The notes beneath the pieces are model-generated. The model was not told where the DNA came from. It searched no databases and saw only the letters and a list, made by a program, of their open reading frames with translations. Below are positions 38,400 through 54,950 of a stretch of DNA of 61,218 nt, piece by piece. The position numbers and the translations under genes are program-made. Numbering within the stretch: the first letter of the stretch is position 1; each line of letters begins with the position of its first letter. Source of the DNA: an uncultured Mucilaginibacter sp. (GTDB lineage Bacteria; Bacteroidota; Bacteroidia; Sphingobacteriales; Sphingobacteriaceae); the NCBI GenBank assembly GCA_903915155.1, contig CAIWRU010000189.1, positions 1 to 61,218 on the forward strand, written 5' to 3'.

Positions 38400-38825
38400 T
38401 TACAATTCTCCCCAGGCAGTAATTATAAGGCTGCGGCTGCCGCCGTAATTGCGGTGCTCGCATAAATAAATTCCCTGCCATGTGCCTAATGCCAGCCTAC
38501 CATTGCGGATAGGGATAGTTACCGAACTGCCGAGCATTGCGGCTTTAAGATGTGCGGGCATGTCGTCGGAGCCTTCCTCATCGTGCAGGTAATCAGGGTC
38601 ATTTTCGGGTACGGCCTTGTTAAAGTACATTTCGAAGTCCTTACGCACGGTTGGGTCAGCATTTTCATTAATAGTGAGCGAGGCAGATGTATGCTGGATG
38701 AAAACCTGTAAAATGCCCGTTTTGAACTCGGTTATTTGTGGAAGCGCGTTTACAACTTCGGCTGTAATGAGGTGGAAGCCGCGTTTGCGTTGGGTGAGCG
38801 AGATTTGTTGCTGGAATATCTTCAT
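38400..38825 (-). CDS. yjbQ: YjbQ family (UPF0047) protein
   Basis: A 141-residue small enzyme-like protein. It has the family hallmarks QHTSASLTINENADPTV (about 45-62), the His-containing DYLHDEEGSDDMPAHLKA (about 78-96) and LGTWQGIYLCEHRNYGG near the end, giving the conserved His/Asp set around a metal site. Members have weak thiamin phosphate synthase activity; the physiological role is unknown. It follows lysC with only the 92-base repeat between them, and its ATG abuts that repeat. Confidence 0.9.
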   Translation of the reverse strand: MKIFQQQISLTQRKRGFHLITAEVVNALPQITEFKTGILQVFIQHTSASLTINENADPTVRKDFEMYFNKAVPENDPDYLHDEEGSDDMPAHLKAAMLGSSVTIPIRNGRLALGTWQGIYLCEHRNYGGSRSLIITAWGEL

Positions 38826-38826
38826 A

Positions 38827-38918
38827 AAGCCCCCTCTAAATCTCCCCCGGTAGGGGAGACTTTTTTGATTAGTTAGTTTTATTAAAGCCCTCCCTACCGG
38901 GGAGGGTTTGGGTGGGGC
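38827..38918. repeat. Two-hairpin junction repeat, copy 1 (between lysC and yjbQ)
   Basis: The repeat has two GC-rich hairpins: one around CTCCCCCGGTAGGGGAG (38842-38858) and one around CCCTCCCTACCGGGGAGGG, joined by an A+T-rich spacer. It fills the lysC-yjbQ gap from the stop codon of one to the ATG of the other. The same element lies inverted at 48093-48192 and as a half at 45214-45250. Confidence 0.88.
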
Positions 38919-40175
38919 CTATCTAACCACCACCTGCGCCGTATTCCTGCTCACCTGTTCCAATAAAACCACTTTGCCTTCGGTTAATTTTTTAAATGAT
39001 TCCGGCGTGTAATGCCGGGTGGTGATGAGCGTAAGGTTGTGATTGTACTTGGCTTTAAAGCTTTCGCTTAGCAGTTTTAATAGCTTATTGAAACGTTCTT
39101 CATCAAAATCAAAACAAACGGTAAAACTTAGTGCCGATGTTTGCATCATGTTTATTTTAACATGGCTTTGGGCAAACAGGCGGAAGATCTCGCTTAAATG
39201 GTCTTCGGATATGAATGAATAGTCTTTGGCCGAAAGCGACAACAATACCTGGTTTTGTTTCAGGATGATAACCGGTTTTTCAAAATGATTGCGGCCGTCT
39301 TCTTTGATTATGGTGCCCGGCGCATCAGGGTTGGTAAACGCCTTAACCAGCAAAGGTATTTTGGCGTTTTGCAGCGGTTTAATTGTTTTTGGGTGGATAA
39401 CCGTAGCGCCGTAATAGGTCATTTCAATGGCTTCGGTGTAAGAAAGCTCGTCGAATTTTACAGTGTCTTTGAATAGTTTAGGGTCGGCGTTAAGGATACC
39501 GGGTACGTCTTTCCAGGTTGTAACGGATTCCGCACCTAATGATGATGCCAGGATCGATGCTGTATAATCCGAACCTTCACGGCCTAAGGTGGTGGTAAAA
39601 TTCTCAGATGTTCCGCCTAAAAATCCTTGTGTTACTACAATGCCTTTAGCCAATAATGCCGGGATGTCTTTTTTAATGCTTTCCCTGGTCTTATCCCATT
39701 GCACTGTTCCCTCGCGGTAATTATTATCGGTATGGATATAGCCGCGAACATCGAGCCATTGACTTTTTAAGCCTGTTTTATTCAGATAGGCATTCACTAT
39801 TCGGGTTGAAACAAGTTCGCCTACCGATACTACCTGGTCGTAAATAAAATCGTAGTCGTCGTGCGGCTCATCTTCAATCATCCAGTCTATCTCTACAAAA
39901 GTATTGGCGACTTCGTTGAAAACAGGATCGTTAGCATCAAACAGCTCGCCTATAATATTGTAGTGGTATTGTTTTATCTCTTCATAAATATCGTGCAGGT
40001 CGTCGGCACCTGATACATAAGCTTTGGTTAGTTTTTCGAGCGCGTTGGTGGTTTTGCCCATTGCCGAAACAACAATCAACAGTTGTTTATCGGTATATAA
40101 ACTAACCACCTTACCTAAATTTATGATACCTGCGGCATCCTTAACCGATGCACCTCCGAATTTAAAAACAAGCAT
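38919..40175 (-). CDS. lysC: Aspartate kinase
   Basis: A 418-residue monofunctional kinase that phosphorylates aspartate, the first step to lysine, threonine and methionine. The N-terminal VFKFGGASVKDA is the kinase signature, and LGREGSDYTASILA (about residue 207) binds the phosphate acceptor. The C-terminal 120 residues form two ACT-type domains for feedback control (INMMQTSALSFTVCFD). The C-terminus RNTAQVVVR ends at a stop codon directly joined to the repeat. It begins with a TAATG overlap with the DUF3298 gene, so lysC is read with that upstream group. Confidence 0.93.
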   Translation of the reverse strand: MLVFKFGGASVKDAAGIINLGKVVSLYTDKQLLIVVSAMGKTTNALEKLTKAYVSGADDLHDIYEEIKQYHYNIIGELFDANDPVFNEVANTFVEIDWMIEDEPHDDYDFIYDQVVSVGELVSTRIVNAYLNKTGLKSQWLDVRGYIHTDNNYREGTVQWDKTRESIKKDIPALLAKGIVVTQGFLGGTSENFTTTLGREGSDYTASILASSLGAESVTTWKDVPGILNADPKLFKDTVKFDELSYTEAIEMTYYGATVIHPKTIKPLQNAKIPLLVKAFTNPDAPGTIIKEDGRNHFEKPVIILKQNQVLLSLSAKDYSFISEDHLSEIFRLFAQSHVKINMMQTSALSFTVCFDFDEERFNKLLKLLSESFKAKYNHNLTLITTRHYTPESFKKLTEGKVVLLEQVSRNTAQVVVR

Positions 40176-40984
40176 TATTTAATATATTGAGCTATTACCG
40201 TATGCGGCAATAATAGTGATTTAATTTTTGTGTAGGGGATAAGCAGGTTGGTTTGCCCGGCCGCATAGGGTTTTATTTCGTATTGATTATACAGGAAGCG
40301 TATGCCCACGGGCGTTATCAGGAAATTATTATTTAATGCGAACTGGTTGTTTTTGAAAAAATAATCTCTGGCTAATGATGAAGTATCGCTTAGGTGTTCC
40401 TGTTTCCTGAAAATAGTGTCGGCTATCTCGTTTAATTTCCCCTCATAATCCTTAGCGAAAATATCATTTAAGCCAATAACCTTGTTTGCTTTTGTATTCC
40501 AGTTGAACAAAGATGTTATGGTAGCGCCATGCGCGCCGCCCTGGAACATATACCCACCAATTTCAAGCGTTACCAGGCTTGAATCCTGGCGTATAATTTT
40601 GGCACTGCTTGTAAGGGTAAATATCCGCCCTTTAACAGCCGGATCATTTTTGCTTTGCTCGTATACATTTACAAACTGGCTGGCATATTTTTGCAGATCG
40701 GTATCGGCTTCGGGGGTGGTATCGGCCCAGAATAAATTGAAGAGCCTATTTTTAACACTATCATTAAGTGTTTTGCTGTTTTTAAACTCGGAGTATTCCA
40801 ACTTTGCAACAGTGCAGCCGCTATCGGGTTTATCACCGCAATCGCTTGCCCTGTGTTTAATAAATTGGTAGGAATAGGCCAGTGTATCTTTATTGATATT
40901 ACTTGCCTGTTTGTTAGGTACGCCCCACATACATGAGCTTAGCGCCAAAACCATTATCAACAAAAATAAGTGTTGTAATTTCAT
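40175..40984 (-). CDS. DUF3298 (RsiV-like) lipoprotein
   Basis: A 269-residue lipoprotein; the signal ends in LALSSC (Cys 18). The mature protein carries the DUF4163-DUF3298 pair: an N-terminal KHRASDCGDKPDSGCTVAKLEYSEF segment, then GGYMFQGGAHGATITSLFNWN (about residue 143-163) with the GGAHG motif, and a C-terminal PYAAGQTNLLIPYTKI strand. In RsiV-type anti-sigma factors the domain binds lysozyme; in free lipoproteins the role is unknown. It is tightly packed between a GNAT gene and lysC with one-base overlaps on both sides. Confidence 0.85.
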   Translation of the reverse strand: MKLQHLFLLIMVLALSSCMWGVPNKQASNINKDTLAYSYQFIKHRASDCGDKPDSGCTVAKLEYSEFKNSKTLNDSVKNRLFNLFWADTTPEADTDLQKYASQFVNVYEQSKNDPAVKGRIFTLTSSAKIIRQDSSLVTLEIGGYMFQGGAHGATITSLFNWNTKANKVIGLNDIFAKDYEGKLNEIADTIFRKQEHLSDTSSLARDYFFKNNQFALNNNFLITPVGIRFLYNQYEIKPYAAGQTNLLIPYTKIKSLLLPHTVIAQYIK

Positions 40985-41454
40985 TAGGAGAGATTTAATA
41001 TTTGTTCCTTAGATAAAGTTGCGTTTAGCCAGCCCGATTCAATATTTGAGCCGTATTTATTGTAAAACTTTATAGCCGGCTCATTCCAATCCAATACCTG
41101 CCACATCATGCCGCTAAAGCCCATTTCTTTGGCCTCCTGTATAATAATATCAAAAAGTAATTTGCCTATACCTTTTCCGCGGTAGGCCTCCGTTACAACC
41201 AGGTCTTCCAAATATAAACGGCGGCCTTTCCAGGTTGAATAACGCACATAGTACAAAGCAAGACCAATAATTACCCCATCATCTTCTGCTACAAACGCTT
41301 TCCAAACGGGATTGTTTCCAAAACCGGCGTCTTCAAATTCCTGTAGGGTAACTGTTACTTCCTGCGGTGCTTTTTCAAACAGGGCAAGCTCATTTATAAG
41401 CTCCATCTGGCGCGGGCAGTCTTCTTTTTTTGCGGTACGTAGTGTAATGTTCAT
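40984..41454 (-). CDS. GNAT-family N-acetyltransferase
   Basis: A 156-residue acetyltransferase. The acetyl-CoA binding motif appears as VVTEAYRGKGIGKLLFDII (R/Q-x2-G-x-G/A, about residues 88-106), and the C-terminal DWNEPAIKFYNKYG is the closing strand of the fold. The subgroup resembles diamine/spermidine acetyltransferases of the SAT type (FEKAPQEVTVT near residue 27), so a polyamine or small amine is a plausible acceptor. It is the first gene of a GNAT-DUF3298-lysC group with one-base overlaps. Confidence 0.87.
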   Translation of the reverse strand: MNITLRTAKKEDCPRQMELINELALFEKAPQEVTVTLQEFEDAGFGNNPVWKAFVAEDDGVIIGLALYYVRYSTWKGRRLYLEDLVVTEAYRGKGIGKLLFDIIIQEAKEMGFSGMMWQVLDWNEPAIKFYNKYGSNIESGWLNATLSKEQILNLS

Positions 41455-41497
41455 TAGTTCATTTGTGTCATTAGTTCATTGGTATGAACAGTCGTAT

Positions 41498-41534
41498 ATC
41501 CTGTAAATCGTATAAATCCGTTTAATCCTGGTTT
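41498..41534. repeat. Short dispersed repeat related to 37028-37067
   Basis: The segment shares the ordered blocks ATCCT, AAATCCGTT, AATCC and GGTT with 37028-37067. The bases before it (41455-41490) hold a second simple repeat, ATTAGTTCATT, twice in tandem. Confidence 0.5.
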
Positions 41535-41535
41535 C

Positions 41536-42225
41536 TTAATTCAGTTTCCAGTGCTTAACTACCCGGCTGCCAAATATGGTGCTGCCGAGCCGTACCATGG
41601 TGCTGCCTTTTTCAATGGCTATCTTATAGTCGGACGACATACCCATCGATAAGGTATCAAATGCTTTGTCCTTACGATAAAAGCTTAGTTTTATGCCTTT
41701 AAAGAAAGTATCGAGCTCATAATATTCTTCGCCTATTTGTTTTTCGTTATCGGTATTGGTGGCTATACCCATTAACCCGCGTATGCGGATGTTTTTTAAC
41801 TGGGCAAATTCATCAGAGCGCAGCAGTTCTATCGCTTCATCAAATCCTAAACCAAATTTAGTTTCCTCATCGGCAATATATATCTGCAAAAGGCAATCGA
41901 TAACGCGATCGTTCTTTAACGCCTGCTTGTTTATTTCCTGCAACAGCTTAAGGCTGTCGACAGATTGGATCATGCTGATAAACGGGGCAATATATTTTAC
42001 CTTGTTGCTTTGTAAATGGCCTATCAGGTGCCATTCAATATCCTTAGGCAGTTTTTCGTATTTGTCAACCAGTTCCTGTACCTGGTTCTCGCCAAAAATG
42101 CGCTGACCGGCGGTGTAGGCTTCCAATATATCTTCAATTGGTTTTGTTTTTGATACCGCTAATAATATTACCCCCTCGCGGTCCGTTTCGTTTTTTAAGT
42201 TAGTGATGTTCCCGGCAATGCTCAT
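41536..42225 (-). CDS. yggS: PLP-binding homeostasis protein YggS/PLPBP
   Basis: A 229-residue TIM-barrel protein that binds pyridoxal phosphate without enzymatic activity and keeps PLP levels balanced. The lysine for PLP is in LLAVSKTKP (K26). RIFGENQVQELVDKYE and EWHLIGHLQSNKVKYI are the strongest family signatures, and MGMSSDYKIAIEKGSTMVRLGSTIFG forms the phosphate-binding end. The gene stands apart, with a repeat at its 3' end and a divergent neighbour 40 bases upstream. Confidence 0.94.
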   Translation of the reverse strand: MSIAGNITNLKNETDREGVILLAVSKTKPIEDILEAYTAGQRIFGENQVQELVDKYEKLPKDIEWHLIGHLQSNKVKYIAPFISMIQSVDSLKLLQEINKQALKNDRVIDCLLQIYIADEETKFGLGFDEAIELLRSDEFAQLKNIRIRGLMGIATNTDNEKQIGEEYYELDTFFKGIKLSFYRKDKAFDTLSMGMSSDYKIAIEKGSTMVRLGSTIFGSRVVKHWKLN

Positions 42226-42265
42226 TTATCCGTAGTTTTGCTGAATTAAACCGCTAAATTACAGA

Positions 42266-42871
42266 ATGCGTAAATATATAATCTTGTTTTTTTTAGTATT
42301 CCCCTTTTTGTTTGCCTGTAATAGCGGCGGATCGTCGGGAGATGTTATACCCGAAGACCAAATGGTTGCCGTTTTAACCGCGGTGCATGTGGCTGATGGC
42401 CGGCTAATTAATATATCGCAGGCCCCCGATACGTTGTATAAATATGGCACGTCGAGGTACCTTGCTGTATTTAAACAGTTTCATACTGATTCGGCCCAAT
42501 TCAGGAAAAGCTACCAGTATTACAGTACAGAGCCTGAGAAATTTGCCGATATGTACGACAAGGTTTTAAAAAACCTGCAGGCTAAGAATGATTCGATCAA
42601 TAAGCTTCTTACTAAAGAAAGCCTGGCTCGTGCCAAAATGCAACAACAATTGCAGCAAAAGCAACAAAAGCAGCCGGGAAAACCCGGGGTTACCGATCCA
42701 AACAGCAGGTATGGGGTGGGGCTTGCACCACAGGTGCCTTTACCCAGCCATGCGCCGCCGCCATCACACGCTGCACCTGCGCAGCCATTCACCTATGTAC
42801 GAATAAAGGCGATACGCGATTCAATTAAAAGAGCACATTTACAAAAAAGGAATGCTGTACCCGCTAAGTAG
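42266..42871 (+). CDS. DUF4296 lipoprotein
   Basis: A 201-residue lipoprotein with a signal ending in LFAC (Cys 18). The N-terminal half has the DUF4296 pattern VIPEDQMVAVLTAVHVADGRL followed by FKQFHTDSAQFRKSYQYY and a helical segment; the C-terminal 80 residues are Gln/Pro/His-rich and low in complexity. The function is unknown. It overlaps mutS2 by 20 bases, so the two share a transcript. Confidence 0.85.
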   Translation: MRKYIILFFLVFPFLFACNSGGSSGDVIPEDQMVAVLTAVHVADGRLINISQAPDTLYKYGTSRYLAVFKQFHTDSAQFRKSYQYYSTEPEKFADMYDKVLKNLQAKNDSINKLLTKESLARAKMQQQLQQKQQKQPGKPGVTDPNSRYGVGLAPQVPLPSHAPPPSHAAPAQPFTYVRIKAIRDSIKRAHLQKRNAVPAK

Positions 42872-45212
42872 TATTGATAAACTTGGATTTACCGAGATAA
42901 AGGAGCTGATAAAAAAGCATTGCCTGAGTATTATGGGCCAGCAAATGGTTGATAAGATACAGGTAATGAATAATTACGACCTGATACATAAGTTTTTGAG
43001 CCAGGCCGCTGAGTTTAAAAATATCCTGGTGAACGATGCTGCGTTACCCATACAGCATTTTTTTGATATTAAATCGCTGGCTAATAAGGCGCGCATTGAG
43101 GGTGTGTTTTTAAGTGAGGAGGAGTTTTTCCAGGTACAAACATCATTAACCACCGTATTCGCGGTTATAGCGTATTTTAATGAACGTGAAGGGCAGTATC
43201 CAAATCTTGAGGCTTTATTTGAACATTTGCCGATAGAAAAGTCGATACTGAAAAAGATTGACTTGGTTATTGACCAAAAAGGAAAGATAAGGGCAAATGC
43301 CTCACGGGACTTACAGGATATAACAGCAGGCATTGCGAAAGCAGAGCAGGAAGCCAGGAAAAAGATTGACCAGGTGTTTAAGGCGGCATCGGCAAATGGC
43401 TGGACGGCGGATGGTTCGTTAACCGTGCGCGACGGGCGTTTATGTATCCCTTTATTAGCTGAAAATAAACGCAAGCTGAAGGGCTTTATACATGATGAAT
43501 CGGCATCGGGCCAAACCGTTTATATGGAGCCGGAAGAAGTTTTTACACTGAATAACCGCATCCGCGATTTAGAATTTGAGCGCCGCCGCGAAATCATCAA
43601 AATACTTGCCGCTTTAACAGACGAATTAAGGCCTTATGCGCCACTTTTGTTAAGTTACCATGGCTTACTTACCAAGCTTGACTTTGTACGGGCAAAGGCG
43701 CTGTTTGCCATTGAAATTGAGGCTGAAATGCCGGTTGTTGTGAACGAACCGGGTTTGAAACTGATAAATGCAAGGCATCCGCTGTTATTCCTGAATTTTA
43801 AAAAAGAGCAAAAGATGGTTGTGCCGCTAAATGTGCGGATAGATAATGTTACGCGCATAGTGGTGGTATCGGGGCCGAATGCAGGGGGCAAATCGGTTTG
43901 TATGAAAACGGTCGGCTTGTTGCAAATGATGGTGCAGGCAGGTTTGTTGATACCGGCAGATGAAGCCAGCGAAATGGGTGTGTTCCGCGAGTTTTTTGTG
44001 GATATTGGCGATGACCAGAGCATTGAAAGTGATTTGAGTACTTACAGCGCGCATTTAAGCAAAATGAAGAATTTTGTGGAAAATGCTAACGCGAAATCGA
44101 TGATACTGATAGATGAATTTGGTACCGGTACTGATCCGCAATTTGGCGGGCCGATAGCAGAAGCGGTGCTGGAATCGCTTAATAATAAAAAGGTGAGGGG
44201 CATGGTGACCACGCACTATTCGAACCTGAAAATATTTGCCAGTCATACCGAGGGTTTGGAAAACGCATCGATGTTATTCAATAACGTGGAGATGAAACCG
44301 CTTTACATTTTGGAGGTTGGTAAGCCAGGCAGTTCGTACGCGTTCGAGATCGCCCAAAAAATTGGTCTGCCACAAAATGTGCTGAATCTTGCAAAAAGTA
44401 AAATAAGTGCCGGGCAAAAAAAGGTGGATACTTTGCTGGTTGACCTGGAGCGCGAGAAGAAGGAGATATTCGACACCAAAGTAAAACTTGAGCAGCAGCA
44501 AAAACACGTGAACCTGCTTTTGGCCGAAAACGAAAAGCTGAAAAGTTATTTGGATGAGAACAGGAAAACCCTGATCCGTGATGCCAAGCAGGAAGCAAAG
44601 GATATTATATTGAATGCCAACCGACTTGTGGAGAATACCATATCGGAAATTAAAAGCAGCAATGCCGATAAGGAAAAAACCCGCCAGTTGCGCGAGAACC
44701 TGACCCGCGAAGTGCAAAAGAACACAGTTAAAACAGACGTTAAAAAGCCGGCTGTTGATGTGGATGAGTTAAAGATTGGTGATTGGGTGAAGCTGAATGA
44801 CTCGGATACCACCGGGCAGGTGATGGAAATAGCACGTGATAATGTGATCATAGCTATTGGTGAGTTGCGAACAGTGGCTAAGAAAAACAGGGTGCAGAAG
44901 GTATCGAAAAAGGAAGTACCGAAAGAGGTGCGCCGAAATTATAGCAACAGCACCAATGATATTGCCAGTTTTAGTCCCGAGATTGACGTGCGCGGTATGC
45001 GTACCGAGGATGCTTTGGGCGCGATAGAACGCCTGTTTGACCGTGCGCTAATGATGGGTTATGGTAATTTAAAGATCATCCATGGCAAGGGCGACGGGAT
45101 ATTACGCAAGATGATACGCCAATACCTGAAGAAATACGAGCAGGTTGATCGCATGGAGGATGAGCATTTGGACAGGGGTGGGGATGGGATAACTTATGTA
45201 TATTTTAAATAG
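42852..45212 (+). CDS. mutS2: MutS2 endonuclease
   Basis: A 786-residue DNA-processing ATPase that suppresses recombination or rescues collided ribosomes, depending on the species. The Walker A motif VSGPNAGGKSVCMKT (about residue 339) and Walker B MILIDEFGTGTDP (about residue 418) are intact. A coiled-coil region (about 510-620) and a KOW-like segment precede the C-terminal Smr nuclease domain with DVRGMRTEDAL and HGKGDGILRK. Full family length. The stop is followed almost at once by the half junction repeat. Confidence 0.94.
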   Translation: MLYPLSSIDKLGFTEIKELIKKHCLSIMGQQMVDKIQVMNNYDLIHKFLSQAAEFKNILVNDAALPIQHFFDIKSLANKARIEGVFLSEEEFFQVQTSLTTVFAVIAYFNEREGQYPNLEALFEHLPIEKSILKKIDLVIDQKGKIRANASRDLQDITAGIAKAEQEARKKIDQVFKAASANGWTADGSLTVRDGRLCIPLLAENKRKLKGFIHDESASGQTVYMEPEEVFTLNNRIRDLEFERRREIIKILAALTDELRPYAPLLLSYHGLLTKLDFVRAKALFAIEIEAEMPVVVNEPGLKLINARHPLLFLNFKKEQKMVVPLNVRIDNVTRIVVVSGPNAGGKSVCMKTVGLLQMMVQAGLLIPADEASEMGVFREFFVDIGDDQSIESDLSTYSAHLSKMKNFVENANAKSMILIDEFGTGTDPQFGGPIAEAVLESLNNKKVRGMVTTHYSNLKIFASHTEGLENASMLFNNVEMKPLYILEVGKPGSSYAFEIAQKIGLPQNVLNLAKSKISAGQKKVDTLLVDLEREKKEIFDTKVKLEQQQKHVNLLLAENEKLKSYLDENRKTLIRDAKQEAKDIILNANRLVENTISEIKSSNADKEKTRQLRENLTREVQKNTVKTDVKKPAVDVDELKIGDWVKLNDSDTTGQVMEIARDNVIIAIGELRTVAKKNRVQKVSKKEVPKEVRRNYSNSTNDIASFSPEIDVRGMRTEDALGAIERLFDRALMMGYGNLKIIHGKGDGILRKMIRQYLKKYEQVDRMEDEHLDRGGDGITYVYFK

Positions 45213-45213
45213 C

Positions 45214-45250
45214 AGCCCCCTCTAAATCTCCCCCGGTAGGGGAGACTTTT
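45214..45250. repeat. Junction repeat, half copy (after mutS2)
   Basis: The segment contains only the CTCCCCCGGTAGGGGAG hairpin half of the element, starting one base after the mutS2 stop. The stem and T run make it a plausible terminator for mutS2, which could be how such elements are kept. Confidence 0.8.
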
Positions 45251-45270
45251 TGACGTTATAATTATTATAT

Positions 45271-46329
45271 ATGAAATATTTTATTTTACTTCTTGCGGCC
45301 ACAATTACATGCAGTTGCAGGGCACAGGTTGTTGTTAAGGGCAATGATCCGCATATCCATTATTCAGGAAGGGTTGCTTTTACTGATAGCGCGGCGGTTT
45401 TGTCTTGGTCGGGGACATCGGTTAAGATAAATTTTGAAGGGAATATAAGTTTCAGTATGCACGAGGAAGGGGACGATTATTATACTGAAATATTGGACGG
45501 GAAAGTAATTGGTGTACTTCATCCAGATGGGAATGTAAATACAGATTATAAAATAGGTATTTCAAATTCGGGCCCTCATACCTTAGAATTATTTAAACGT
45601 ACGGAGTGGGCCATGGGAAAAACACTGTTTTATGGATTTAAAACAGACGGTAAAATTTTATCACCCCCGCCGACTAAAAAACGTAAGATCGAGATATTTG
45701 GTAATTCCATTAGCTGTGGTTATGCCATTTTAGATACAGCGGGGAAGGACAGGGGTTCAGCGCCTTATGAAGATGGCTATAACAGCTACGCGGCTTTAAC
45801 AGCGCGCCATTATGATGCTGAGTTCGTCAATACGTCAAAAAGCGGTATAGGAGTTACCGTTAGCTGGTTCCCATTGATAATGCCCGAAATGTACGACAGG
45901 CTTGACGCCACCGATTCCACCAGTAAATGGGATTTTAAAAAATATACGCCCGATTTGGTAATTGTCAACCTGTTTCAAAATGATTCGTGGATAGTGAACA
46001 TGCCCGATAATCCACAGTTTAAAGCACGTTTCGGCACAAAACCGCCGACTGCTGAATTTTTGATAAATGCTTACCGCGATTTTGTAAAAAGCGTTAGGGG
46101 TAAATATCCCAAAGCCCATATCATTTGTATTTTGGGAAGTATGGACGCAACAAAAGCGGGTGCACCGTGGCCCGGATATATTGAAAAAGCAGTTACCGGA
46201 TTGAACGATAAAAATATTTACACACATTTTATTCCTTATAAAGGGACGCCCGGCCATCCGAGTGCCAACGAGCAGCAGGCTATGGCAACCGACCTGGAAG
46301 GTTTTATAGATAAGACGATAAAATGGTAG
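45271..46329 (+). CDS. SGNH-hydrolase, CE2-like carbohydrate esterase
   Basis: A 352-residue exported esterase. The signal peptide (about 1-19) holds Cys residues, CSCRA, so lipidation at Cys 16 or 18 is possible. Residues 20-125 form the beta-sandwich of CE2 acetyl-xylan esterases (HYSGRVAFTDSAAVLSWSGTSV). The SGNH domain starts with IEIFGNSISCGYAI, the Ser being the nucleophile, and ends in GTPGHPSANEQQAMA with the catalytic His. It removes acetyl groups from xylan-like polymers in the family. It is the only gene on its transcript. Confidence 0.85.
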   Translation: MKYFILLLAATITCSCRAQVVVKGNDPHIHYSGRVAFTDSAAVLSWSGTSVKINFEGNISFSMHEEGDDYYTEILDGKVIGVLHPDGNVNTDYKIGISNSGPHTLELFKRTEWAMGKTLFYGFKTDGKILSPPPTKKRKIEIFGNSISCGYAILDTAGKDRGSAPYEDGYNSYAALTARHYDAEFVNTSKSGIGVTVSWFPLIMPEMYDRLDATDSTSKWDFKKYTPDLVIVNLFQNDSWIVNMPDNPQFKARFGTKPPTAEFLINAYRDFVKSVRGKYPKAHIICILGSMDATKAGAPWPGYIEKAVTGLNDKNIYTHFIPYKGTPGHPSANEQQAMATDLEGFIDKTIKW

Positions 46330-46717
46330 GGTGATACTCAGTTTAATTCCCTGCTACAGAGAGGTGCGGTGGGATGTGAATTAACAGGAGGGCTAATAGG
46401 ATCTGTGCACAAACCCTTCTTCCGGGGAGTAAAATCCATTATTAAACATATTAAAGCATTGGCTGGATTCCCCGGAAGGAATCAAAAGAATATTATTGCA
46501 AGCCAAGGGTACAATTACATGGTTTACACAATTTAACCTGTTTATTTTTTAAATAATTGATAATCAATATATTAATATAAAAATAGTTTGAAATTGTGTT
46601 AAGTTATGTTAACCATATAATTTGAGTAATGCACCATAACTATCTTTTTTATGGGCTATTACTCAACTAAGGGGAGGGAATCGTACACTCCGGTTTTTTT
46701 TGTCTTCAGAAAATAGG
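46330..46717. other. Gene-free stretch with two inverted repeats
   Basis: The 388 bases hold no reading frame I would support. Two inverted repeats stand out: CTTCCGGGGA at 46419-46428 with TCCCCGGAAG at 46469-46478 (40-base loop), and TTGAGTAAT...CCATAA at 46622-46639 with TTATGG...ATTACTCAA at 46649-46666. The second precedes the 3' end of the minus-strand gene at 46718 and may be part of its terminator. Confidence 0.6.
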
Positions 46718-47278
46718 CTATGTTTCAATATGTTCTATATTGTCGTCATCTTCGCCAACTTTTTGTTGGTCGGGTAGTTCATTAGGGCCGGGGATATTGG
46801 GTTCACCTTCCCCGTCATTATCGTCGGTGCCTTCGGTGTAAGGTTGTTGCGGATGTGGGCGGTCGTTCTCACCGTTGCCGCGTTCTACTTTTTCGGGTTT
46901 TGGGTCTGTGTTTTCTATAACTGGTCGTGCCGCGCTGTAGTTGGGCGATCCATCCTGGTATTTGGCGGTGAAGTTGCTGTCTTCAGGATGTTCTTCCGAT
47001 GGCTCATTACGATCAAAGTAAGCATTGGTATGGCCGGCCATTTGGGTGGGATTATTTTTATCATTACCCGCAGGCGTATTGTTTTCCTGCCCGAAATTTT
47101 GCCCGCCAACACCCTTGCCTTCAGTTGGGTTGGCCGGGTTCTTCCCTTTGCCAAACAGGAATGTTCTAGTAAGATGCTCTTCATCTAATCCTGTGCCGTC
47201 GTCGGCACGGTAGGTGCCGGCTTCGGGTTGCGGGTGATCGCTACCGTTGCCTATAGTATCATTATCCTCAATATTCAT
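46718..47278 (-). CDS. Acidic, probably disordered protein
   Basis: A 186-residue, highly hydrophilic protein rich in Asn, Gly, Glu, Asp and Pro with almost no large hydrophobics, no signal peptide and no cysteines. Segments such as EGKGVGGQNFGQENN and DRNEPSEEHPEDSN look like low-complexity stress or hydrophilin-type sequence. The opposite strand is open in places but would encode Cys/Trp-rich sequence without family sense. I do not recognise the family; protective or scaffolding roles are possible. Confidence 0.65.
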   Translation of the reverse strand: MNIEDNDTIGNGSDHPQPEAGTYRADDGTGLDEEHLTRTFLFGKGKNPANPTEGKGVGGQNFGQENNTPAGNDKNNPTQMAGHTNAYFDRNEPSEEHPEDSNFTAKYQDGSPNYSAARPVIENTDPKPEKVERGNGENDRPHPQQPYTEGTDDNDGEGEPNIPGPNELPDQQKVGEDDDNIEHIET

Positions 47279-47408
47279 GTCTTTATGATTTGTGTATAAA
47301 TTATAATGTTTCAGAATTTTAATTGTTTTGATTATTTCTTTGTGTGATGAGGTATCTTATCAGCCAACTAAAAAATGCTAATTTTACCGCACCAATTATA
47401 TAGTATTC

Positions 47409-48119
47409 ATGAATAAAGTAGTTAGCGGTGCCGATGAGGCCATACGCGATATTGAAGACGGCATGACGTTAATGCTGGGCGGCTTCGGTTTGTGCGGGTT
47501 GCCCGAGAAATGTATTGCCGCGCTGGTAAAAAAAGGGGTGAAGGAGCTTACCTGTATATCAAACAACGCCGGTGTTGATGATTTTGGCATCGGACTGATG
47601 CTAAGGCAACGGCAGGTGAAGAAGATGGTATCATCATACGTGGGCGAGAATGCCGAGTTTGAGCGCCAGTTACTGAGCGGCGAGCTGGAAGTTGAACTGA
47701 TTCCACAAGGTACCTTAGCCACCCGCTGCATGGCCGCGGGTTATGGCATGCCTGCCATTTTCACGCCCGCAGGCGTAGGCACCGAAGTTGCCGAAGGCAA
47801 GGAAGTACGTAATTTTAACGGCAAGGATTATTTGATGGAAATGGCCTTTGATGCCGATTTTGCCATTGTAAAAGCCTGGAAAGGCGATACACAGGGCAAT
47901 CTTATTTATCGCCATACGGCAAGGAATTTTAACCCCGTGATGGCTATGGCAGGTAAAATAACTATTGCCGAAGTAGAAGAACTGGTTGAAGTAGGTGAAC
48001 TCGACCCGGATAATATACATACGCCGGGGATATATGTGCACAGGATATTTGAGGGGAAGAACTATGAGAAGAGGATTGAGAACAGGACGGTTCAGCCCCA
48101 CCCAAATCCTCCCCGGTAG
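47409..48119 (+). CDS. scoA: 3-oxoacid CoA-transferase subunit A, tail rewritten by a repeat
   Basis: A 236-residue subunit of succinyl-CoA:3-ketoacid CoA-transferase, which activates acetoacetate. It carries the family glycine motif [15 protein letters not shown] (about residue 21), [15 protein letters not shown] and [12 protein letters not shown]. The last eight residues, QPHPNPPR, and the stop codon are encoded by the junction repeat that starts at 48093, so the natural end (usually KRTV followed by a short charged tail) has been replaced. The enzyme core is untouched and the partner scoB follows, so activity is probably kept. Confidence 0.92.
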
Positions 48120-48192
48120 GGAGGGCTTTAAAAAACTTAATTATTTACAATTTAAAAAGTCTCCCCTTTTGGGGGAGATTTAGAGGGGGCTT
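48093..48192. repeat. Two-hairpin junction repeat, copy 3 (scoA to scoB)
   Basis: It is the same element as 38827-38918 in the opposite sense on the plus strand: one hairpin around CCTCCCCGGTAGGGAGG, a spacer of about 30 A+T-rich bases, and a second around TCTCCCCTTTTGGGGGAGA. It runs from inside the last codons of scoA to the base before the scoB ATG at 48193. Orientation relative to both flanking genes is the same as in lysC-yjbQ. Confidence 0.88.
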
Positions 48193-48849
48193 ATGTTAGA
48201 CAAAAACGGAATCGCAAAGCGCATTGCAAAAGAAATAAAGGACGGGTTTTATGTTAACCTTGGTATTGGTATACCTACGCTGGTGGCTAATTATATACCC
48301 GATACGATGGATGTGGTGTTGCAGTCGGAAAATGGCCTGCTGGGTATGGGGCCGTTCCCAATTGAGGGCGAGGAAGATGCTTATACCATAAACGCGGGTA
48401 AACAAACTATTACCATGCTGCCGGGTTCGGCTATATTTGATTCGGCCATGAGCTTTGGGATGATACGCGCACAGAAAGTTAATCTAACCATACTTGGCGC
48501 TATGGAAGTATCCGAGAACGGCGATATAGCCAGCTGGAAGATCCCCGGTAAAATGGTGAAGGGCATGGGTGGTGCGATGGACCTGGTGGCATCGGCTAAA
48601 AATATCATCGTGGCCATGCAGCATGTGAATAAGGCAGGAGAATCTAAGTTATTATCCAAATGTACGTTGCCCTTAACCGGTGTTAATTGTGTTAAAAAAA
48701 TTGTGACTGAATTAGCAGTAATGGATGTGCTCCCTGAAGGCGGCTTTAAACTGTTAGAACGTGCGCCTGGAGTAAGTGTTGAGGAAATTAAAAATGCGAC
48801 AATGGGAAAGTTGATTATTGAGGGAGAAATACTTGAGATGGTTATTTGA
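48193..48849 (+). CDS. scoB: 3-oxoacid CoA-transferase subunit B
   Basis: A 218-residue subunit of the succinyl-CoA:acetoacetate transferase. The catalytic glutamate is in LQSENGLLGMGPFP (about residue 51). Other signatures are YVNLGIGIPTLVANYIP at the start and SGWKIPG-like DIASWKIPGKMVKGMGGAMDL (about residue 115-135), followed by the closing CTLPLTGVNCVKKIVTEL. It is joined to scoA only through the repeat, whose hairpins could lower scoB expression. Confidence 0.93.
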   Translation: MLDKNGIAKRIAKEIKDGFYVNLGIGIPTLVANYIPDTMDVVLQSENGLLGMGPFPIEGEEDAYTINAGKQTITMLPGSAIFDSAMSFGMIRAQKVNLTILGAMEVSENGDIASWKIPGKMVKGMGGAMDLVASAKNIIVAMQHVNKAGESKLLSKCTLPLTGVNCVKKIVTELAVMDVLPEGGFKLLERAPGVSVEEIKNATMGKLIIEGEILEMVI

Positions 48850-54878: not shown

Positions 54879-54950
54879 TGCTCCCGACGAGATTCGAACT
54901 CATATCGATGGTACCGGAAACCATAATTCTATCCGTTGAACTACGGGAGC
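54879..54950 (-). tRNA. tRNA-Arg, anticodon CCG
   Basis: Read on the minus strand the fold is complete. The acceptor GCTCCCG pairs with CGGGAGC, the D arm is GTTC/GAAT, and the anticodon stem is ATGGT/ACCAT around loop TTCCGGT. The T arm is ATGAG/CTCGT with loop TTCGAAT. The anticodon is CCG, reading Arg codon CGG. The discriminator is A and the CCA end is not encoded. Confidence 0.95.

Follow-up and report, generated by a model that had tools for sequence, protein, structure and literature searches.

Two-arm palindromic repeats at operon junctions of a Mucilaginibacter genome and their possible link to DUF559 endonuclease genes

The 61,218-nucleotide stretch of DNA analysed here (the window; contig CAIWRU010000189.1 of an uncultured Mucilaginibacter sp.) contains two full copies and one half copy of a palindromic repeat that lie at or beside the stop and start codons of neighbouring genes. 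We consider it rather likely, with some reserve, that these repeats are two-arm, non-autonomous versions of a dispersed palindromic element, which in its full form consists of an arm, a DUF559 endonuclease gene and an inverted arm. The main reason for calling them gene-less forms of a DUF559 element is a comparison of leuS among genomes, where the same in-frame sites hold different occupants. Judging from the sequence comparisons described below, DUF559 may also be what moves or homogenises the arms.

The element is built of two distinct inverted palindromic arms, A (GCCCCCTCTAAATCTCCCCCGGTAGGGGAGACTT) and B (GCCCCACCCAAACCCTCCCCGGTAGGGAGGGCTT), which point toward each other across a variable AT-rich spacer. 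By a count made by eye the two arms are alike at 25 of 34 positions, and because they differ, the element has a direction. In the following, G000 denotes the genome of the window (3.73 Mb in 222 contigs), other G numbers denote relatives, and L numbers denote loci. The mutS2 gene of G000 has hits of 91% identity, two named Mucilaginibacter strains among them, and the genome is assigned to that genus accordingly.

Shared sites in leuS and the flanks of DUF559 genes

The leuS gene of G000 carries three in-frame A/B elements, and two inverted A arms, both of them the dispersed A arm (L279), border a DUF559 domain that Pfam places at residues 592-697 of the 1177-residue product. The gene is taken to be single in this genome because PF13603 has one strong match and, elsewhere, one weak match. 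At site 1 (before IEVFTTR), G140 and G023 have no insert, G000 and G061 have a two-arm element, and G041 and G163 have DUF559; the DUF559 of G113, which likewise lies ahead of the editing domain, is assigned to this site by domain order. At site 2 (before MPGWAGSSWY), a DUF559 cassette is present in G000, G061, G023 and G140 and a stretch resembling a lone arm in G163, and G041 has no insert. At site 3 (before EKMSKS), a lone arm was seen in G061, G140 and G113; G023, G041 and G000 are empty there.

Inverted palindromic arms also flank DUF559 genes at other loci. DUF559 was found in 49 of 60 relative genomes (130 matches), and 31 loci, two from G000 and 29 from relatives (mostly the best per genome), were scored for inverted repeats between their 260-nt flanks. 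Scores of at least 31 were obtained at 24 of these loci and of at least 26 at 28, as compared to 0 and 3 of 31 for shuffled flanks; the seven loci below 31 mean that arm flanking is not universal. Among control genes, a score of 31 was reached by 0 of 102 in G000 and by 8 of 596 in relatives, those near elements not being independent of the elements, and in a positive control 16 of 34 Y1 transposase genes reached it with their own, often GTAG-bearing, repeats. A sample of the phylum gave 13 of 29 DUF559 loci at 31 and 19 at 26 (0 and 4 after shuffling), and three of eight scored plasmid loci from other phyla (41 records matched) reached 31. At a Pseudanabaena plasmid locus a two-arm element stands on either side of DUF559, and on a Sphingomonas plasmid the cassette lies between the TGA stop and the ATG of transhydrogenase genes; DNA of the element itself had no match in plasmid sequences. 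The second DUF559 gene of G000 lies between hisA and hisF and is bordered by other G-rich palindromes. At this locus (L280:699-2636) the beginning of hisF is read from an arm (SSPFRGRGGLSKRIIPCLDV), and similar fusions are seen at L294, L298, L306 and L309.

Inverted arms beside DUF559 and gene-less copies with the same arms elsewhere are thus both present, and the two tend to agree in type. Eight genomes have DUF559 arms clearly of one type, and in seven of them the same type is the commoner among dispersed copies: own and other copies number 80 and 3 in G000 and 34 and 0 in G023, both with A-type arms, and 29 and 5 in G011, 20 and 1 in G016, 20 and 7 in G008, 11 and 2 in G004, and 7 and 4 in G012 (83% complete), all with CCTCACCCC-type arms. 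This count left out G036, G029, G027, G035 and others that fit neither or both types.

Residence in frame is not confined to leuS. Among 18 DUF559-bearing frames scanned, three were metH, three leuS, and two each methylmalonyl-CoA mutase, hsdR and lhr helicase; one each was hsdM, a type ISP enzyme, a DNA methylase, an N-formylglutamate amidohydrolase frame and an M23 peptidase frame, and one consisted of DUF559 alone. In none of these frames did Pfam report an intein domain, a scan that did not extend to introns. The in-frame DUF559 domains within restriction-modification genes of the hsdR, hsdM, type ISP and DNA methylase kinds (L281, L350, L351, L355 and L362) could affect the activity of these genes.

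The domain matches PF04480 and the endonuclease-like protein of PDB entry 3hrl (E 2e-12). Thirteen residues are invariant among 37 copies that we chose from several host genes, and these include D56, E67, D69 and H73, which form a putative active site. DUF559 is a small PD-(D/E)XK-like nuclease of the Vsr/EDxHD type. Such a nuclease would cut or nick DNA and drive a homing-like spread or conversion of arm-bearing DNA, and it could also keep the arms uniform.

In favour of the link, the number of arm copies rises with the number of DUF559 genes (rho 0.46, p 0.008, n=32; 0.63 in the 19 genomes with Y1 data, where arm copies against Y1 number give rho 0.07), in a correlation uncorrected for genome size and ancestry. 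Several observations weigh against a DUF559 origin of the repeats. In G000, 80 A matches with at most one mismatch stand beside two DUF559 genes, one of which alone has A arms; G028 and G034 have 25 and 37 arm copies with a single DUF559 each, and five genomes with at most one arm copy have one DUF559. No DUF559 match was found in the 99% complete genome G003, which has 18 arm copies (2 A and 16 of the CCTCACCCC type) and may have lost DUF559 or relied on another mover. The agreement in arm type breaks down in G033, with 8 copies of its own type and 17 of A. Nine of the 130 DUF559 matches in relatives have internal stops, and arms are weaker at a distance, 16 of the 29 phylum-sample loci and 5 of the 8 plasmid loci scoring below 31. 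In leuS itself, the site-1 DUF559 inserts of G163 and G113 have control-like arm scores of 17 and 13, and only that of G041 scores (38); the arms of the former two have been lost or were never present. DUF559 might be a passenger that shares insertion-tolerant sites with the arms.

Placement of the element in the window, the genome and relatives

The two full copies in the window are near-identical and, as originally predicted, have the same orientation relative to their genes, at 38829-38918 between the minus-strand genes lysC and yjbQ and at 48095-48190 between the plus-strand genes scoA and scoB. The first copy consists of an A arm (38829-38862, plus strand) whose outer edge is 3 nt from the minus-strand yjbQ ATG (38823-38825), an AT-rich spacer (38863-38884) that forms the loop of a long stem, and a B arm (38885-38918, minus strand) that adjoins the minus-strand lysC stop codon (38919-38921). 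The other full copy, copy 3, consists of a B arm (48095-48128, plus strand), an AT-rich spacer (48129-48156) and an A arm (48157-48190, minus strand) that leaves 2 nt between its outer edge and the scoB ATG (48193-48195). The half copy predicted after mutS2 is a lone A arm (45215-45248, plus strand) that begins 2 nt beyond the stop codon (45210-45212). The core patterns of the arms have 3 and 2 matches in the window, against chance means of 0.04 and 0.03.

The claim that the element sits exactly between stop and start codons held for the first copy, which abuts the lysC stop and comes near the yjbQ ATG, and failed at scoA, where the TAG stop (48117-48119) falls within the B arm and the terminal residues VQPHPNPPR are coded at or in the element. 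Homology of scoA to most relatives stops at about residue 229 of 236, and its C-terminus has been re-coded by the element. The predicted pair of hairpins needs similar correction: two inverted arms are present that differ in sequence, and in each full copy, taken as a single strand or RNA, they pair in a single long stem (-45.1 and -42.0 kcal/mol, z -4.85 and -3.87). The hairpin of the lone A arm is no stronger than those of shuffled sequences (-12.2 kcal/mol, z -1.25), and among 54 full copies in the genome the minimum free energy fold pairs both arms together, over at least 15 bp, in 33.

With up to three mismatches allowed, pattern searches of G000 located A at 85 places and B at 45, and the list of elements has 88 rows, those of the window included: 54 full copies, 27 lone A arms, 6 lone B arms and one A/A pair. 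Some of the lone arms appear, by eye, to be decayed full copies. Copies are mostly extragenic, with exceptions inside leuS; further copies perhaps lie within reading frames at L073:2600-2685, L082:4847-4885, L050:6529-6567 and L074:4344-4382. At L095:1075-1224 a B arm hairpin is interrupted by a second hairpin-like insert (GCACCGCCGCTAAAGC...), making a nested repeat.

Distances to stop and start codons, and strand, were listed for the genome with a simple purpose-made gene caller, whose called starts are uncertain. Thirty-six full copies have A toward a start and B toward a stop, 11 have stops on both sides, 6 have A toward a stop and B toward a start, and one has starts on both sides; the B side is thus turned toward a stop codon in 47 of 54. 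Those 47 stops lie at 0-10 nt in 33 cases, at 11-50 nt in two and beyond in one, and at negative distances in 11, of which five overlap the edge of the element by 1-2 nt and six lie 24-50 nt inside. On the A side, the 37 starts lie at 0-10 nt in 23 copies, at 11-50 nt in five and at more than 50 nt in nine, and the 17 stops lie at 0-10 nt in nine, inside the element in five (the TAA of CTCTAAATC) and at more than 50 nt in three. In 21 of the 36 copies with A at a start and B at a stop, each of the two genes overlaps the element or lies no more than 10 nt away, as compared to 1.0% and 0.8% of random points within 10 nt of both neighbours in 186 co-directional and 28 convergent element-free gaps. 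Placement is far from random, and the junction pattern is genome-wide with exceptions; random placement, which the original prediction had named as the contrary result, did not occur. In 800 kb of the relative G062, six full copies were found, five of them with B toward a stop (four within 3 nt and one with the stop inside), and the A side was within 10 nt of a called start in just one of five, so the A-to-ATG rule was not reproduced there.

The spacers at L091 (about 2640-2690, GCACCTCTG..CAGAGGTGC) and L089 (about 1050-1110, AAAGCCCTTCTC..GAAAAGGGCTTT) contain terminator-like hairpins, and the arms can thus enclose what is likely a native terminator. These two loci and lysC-yjbQ suggested that the spacer is native intergenic DNA, in the order stop, B, gap, A, start; this is not general, as at L048 a native gap of 5 nt corresponds to a longer spacer.

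Comparison of occupied and empty junctions, which had been proposed as a check, was possible for the 22 of 88 rows that could be placed syntenically in relatives, 13 of them full copies. Six of these were dropped from the count of conservation, three without arms in the relative and three outside length limits. In the remaining seven full pairs, A arms are 94% identical between species (224/238) and B arms 92% (216/236), as compared to 58% for spacers (146/253) and 79% for the mostly coding flanks (749/946). Because these copies are common to both species, they predate the species split, and because their arms are far more alike than their spacers, the arms have been kept or homogenised. Both shared and empty sites were found, and where the relative is empty, the element has replaced the native gap rather than being inserted at a fixed motif: 37-44 nt at lysC-yjbQ in the four nearest relatives, 5 nt at L048 and 26 nt at L060 (lengths measured by eye), and at scoA the final codons and stop as well. 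No target-site duplication was recognised at the empty sites compared, L102 having a possible AT-rich direct repeat. At the place in G062 orthologous to L045:2600-2638 there is an apparent decayed A arm (GAGGTGTTTAAATCTATTGTGAAAGGGTAGACTTT).

Each insertion, together with later loss of flanking DNA, would replace unconstrained DNA up to the nearest constrained bases. At operon junctions those borders would be the stop codon of the first gene and the start codon of the gene that follows, and in proteins the conserved segments around a loop. Since the protein inserts are bordered by conserved segments, the exact fit between stop and start can be read as a filter of constraint and not as recognition of stop codons.

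Alternative explanations

The second possibility raised by the original prediction, that the elements are junction regulators kept by selection, appears unlikely. The long stem after a stop codon would protect mRNA, stall ribosomes or attenuate transcription, and the A end would serve as a start context. Such a role draws on the direction bias in co-directional gaps, where 36 copies have B at the stop and A at the start and 6 the reverse (p 3e-6; one leuS copy, L106, and one that may be intragenic, L073, are included, and without both the counts are 35 and 5). In 44 of 54 copies the fold is also slightly weaker on the strand that is transcribed in the preferred direction (mean -43.2 as compared to -46.5 kcal/mol), and ribosomes are stalled by repetitive extragenic palindromic (REP) elements of Escherichia coli that lie no more than 15 nt from a stop codon, according to work cited in a passage of PMC12306157. 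Under the favoured reading, too, the bias would probably arise from selection on the transcript. The better conservation of the arms than of adjacent, mostly coding DNA is as expected of a regulator, but it could also stem from conversion between copies. At the A end, GAGG ends 6-8 nt before the ATG in 16 of 25 A-side starts, a spacing that would allow the element to supply a Shine-Dalgarno sequence; this candidate was rejected, as Shine-Dalgarno-like motifs in G000 are near background (12 of 257, 7.4 +- 2.6 expected). The same family of elements also resides inside leuS.

The scoA-scoB junction argues further against a regulator. By simple motif labels, 35 of 52 such junctions in relatives carry other motifs (22 only the GTCATTGCGAG type, 8 the TTTGAAAATTTG type, 3 the GTCAT[CT]CTGAG type and 2 a mixture), and the remainder, with none of those repeat motifs, are long and unclassified in 10 cases and short in seven. 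Most other species therefore fill this gap otherwise or have a short one, and the element is not required there. The native gap may be as small as 2-4 nt (L166, L159). Across Mucilaginibacter species this junction (L110-L181) is a recurrent docking site, which holds unrelated repeat families in some and almost no gap in others.

That the repeats are REP or REPIN elements moved by a REP-associated tyrosine transposase (RAYT; a Y1, HUH enzyme), as in Pseudomonas or E. coli, is improbable. They resemble such elements in being palindromic, dispersed, arranged as inverted pairs and often near stop codons; G000 has five Y1_Tnp matches, two of them RAYT-like by motifs, and a passage of PMC6006769 describes a Bacteroidetes-rich TnpA subclass with atypical flanking structures. 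However, of 34 Y1 loci, taken from 131 Y1 matches and including the five of G000, none has an A or B arm in up to 1.5 kb on either side, and Y1 matches are absent from G023 despite its 34 A copies. The two RAYT-like genes of G000 carry their own, different palindromes, and the GTAG of the present element sits in the loop (CGGTAGG; GGAA or GGTT in some copies) and not at the foot of the hairpin. The palindromes around the RAYT-like genes, at L034:1252-1815 and L035:1420-1971, are approximately GTTGCAAACTTTC.../GGTTTCAGTTATAAACTGAAACC and GCTGGCGCACGCGTGTCGCGTGTGC.

It is very improbable that an unknown transposase takes the stop codon (or TAA/TAG-GCCCC) as its target, because, although 44 of the 47 B-side stops are at most 10 nt from the element, overlap its edge or fall inside it, six lie well within it, the A end is found at starts as well as stops, copies lie in frame inside leuS, and comparison with orthologous empty sites shows that DNA was replaced, no common motif being seen. 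Thus, of the originally proposed mobile element that chooses stop codons, the dispersed, mobile-type element is retained, on the strength of the shared and empty sites in relatives and of leuS, and the choice of stop codons is not.

Relation to known systems and remaining features of the window

The nearest known architecture is that of REPs and RAYTs, as described in passages of PMC3733652 and PMC6006769; the definitions of GTAG REPs and of CGTC-tagged Rickettsia palindromic elements (RPEs) are those of a passage in the former, and a passage of PMC12306157 places REPs near stop codons in E. coli. Like REPtrons (REP-RAYT units) and REPINs, the present system has a nuclease gene flanked by palindromes and many dispersed gene-less copies, often inverted pairs near stops, of high copy number and mostly extragenic. 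It differs in that the flanked gene is DUF559 and not of the HUH/Y1 type, in that the two arms differ in sequence, and in that cassettes lie in frame within genes.

A second likeness is to the EDxHD (Vsr-like) homing endonucleases of the I-Bth0305I type. A passage of PMC9403480, citing Taylor 2011, places a DUF559 gene in the EDxHD family, and one of PMC12907096 describes a Caulobacter DUF559 protein as Vsr-like. DUF559 shares with these enzymes a Vsr-type PD-(D/E)XK-like domain with conserved putative active-site residues, and its in-frame residence in conserved genes is homing-like, whereas the frames scanned yielded no intein domain, and the passages on EDxHD enzymes do not mention arms or gene-less copies. 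Miniature inverted-repeat transposable elements are likewise small, have inverted repeats and derive from a larger unit that bears a gene; here, in contrast, native DNA was replaced at the empty sites compared, where no target duplication was recognised apart from the possible direct repeat at L102, and the gene-bearing unit encodes a DUF559 nuclease. RPEs are palindromic repeats able to sit in frame in protein-coding genes, as the present element does in leuS, but the arm ends here have no CGTC tag and are linked to an endonuclease gene.

These comparisons raise the possibility, which we put forward tentatively, of a widespread and undescribed class of mobile element, in which arm-bounded DUF559 cassettes would enter operon junctions and, without a recognised intein, genes in frame, shed two-arm miniatures that replace stop-to-start gaps across the genome, and have their arms kept by homing-like conversion through the nuclease: a second REPtron-like system, with a Vsr-type nuclease in place of the HUH transposase. 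Literature searches on DUF559 and palindromes, EDxHD or Vsr-like homing, Bacteroidetes palindromic elements and leuS returned nothing that describes arm-flanked DUF559 in its title or the start of its abstract, subscription journals being mostly outside their reach. DUF559 is widespread and listed by Pfam as of unknown function, and G-rich palindromes of the same type occupy junctions in several bacteria; a connection between them provides each with a role that can be tested. If correct, the link would explain the exact filling of stop-to-start gaps by repeats, the three in-frame inserts in the sole leucyl-tRNA synthetase of G000, and the SPxxLGExxGE-like stretches in proteins of these bacteria. 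The elements would then represent a new kind of bacterial repeat system, one whose full form is able to sit inside essential genes, and would make available for study a natural nuclease whose landing sites are in frame.

The genes adjoining the window copies have names that match their NCBIfam assignments. At the first copy, the upstream gene is the aspartate kinase gene lysC (38919-40175, minus strand, TIGR00657) and the downstream gene yjbQ (38400-38825, minus strand, TIGR00149). The lone A arm follows mutS2 (42852-45212, plus strand, TIGR01069), and copy 3 joins the scoA reading frame (47409-48119, plus strand) to scoB (48193-48849, plus strand, TIGR02428). An Rfam scan of the window found a tRNA alone, a gene on the minus strand at 54879-54950 (RF00005).

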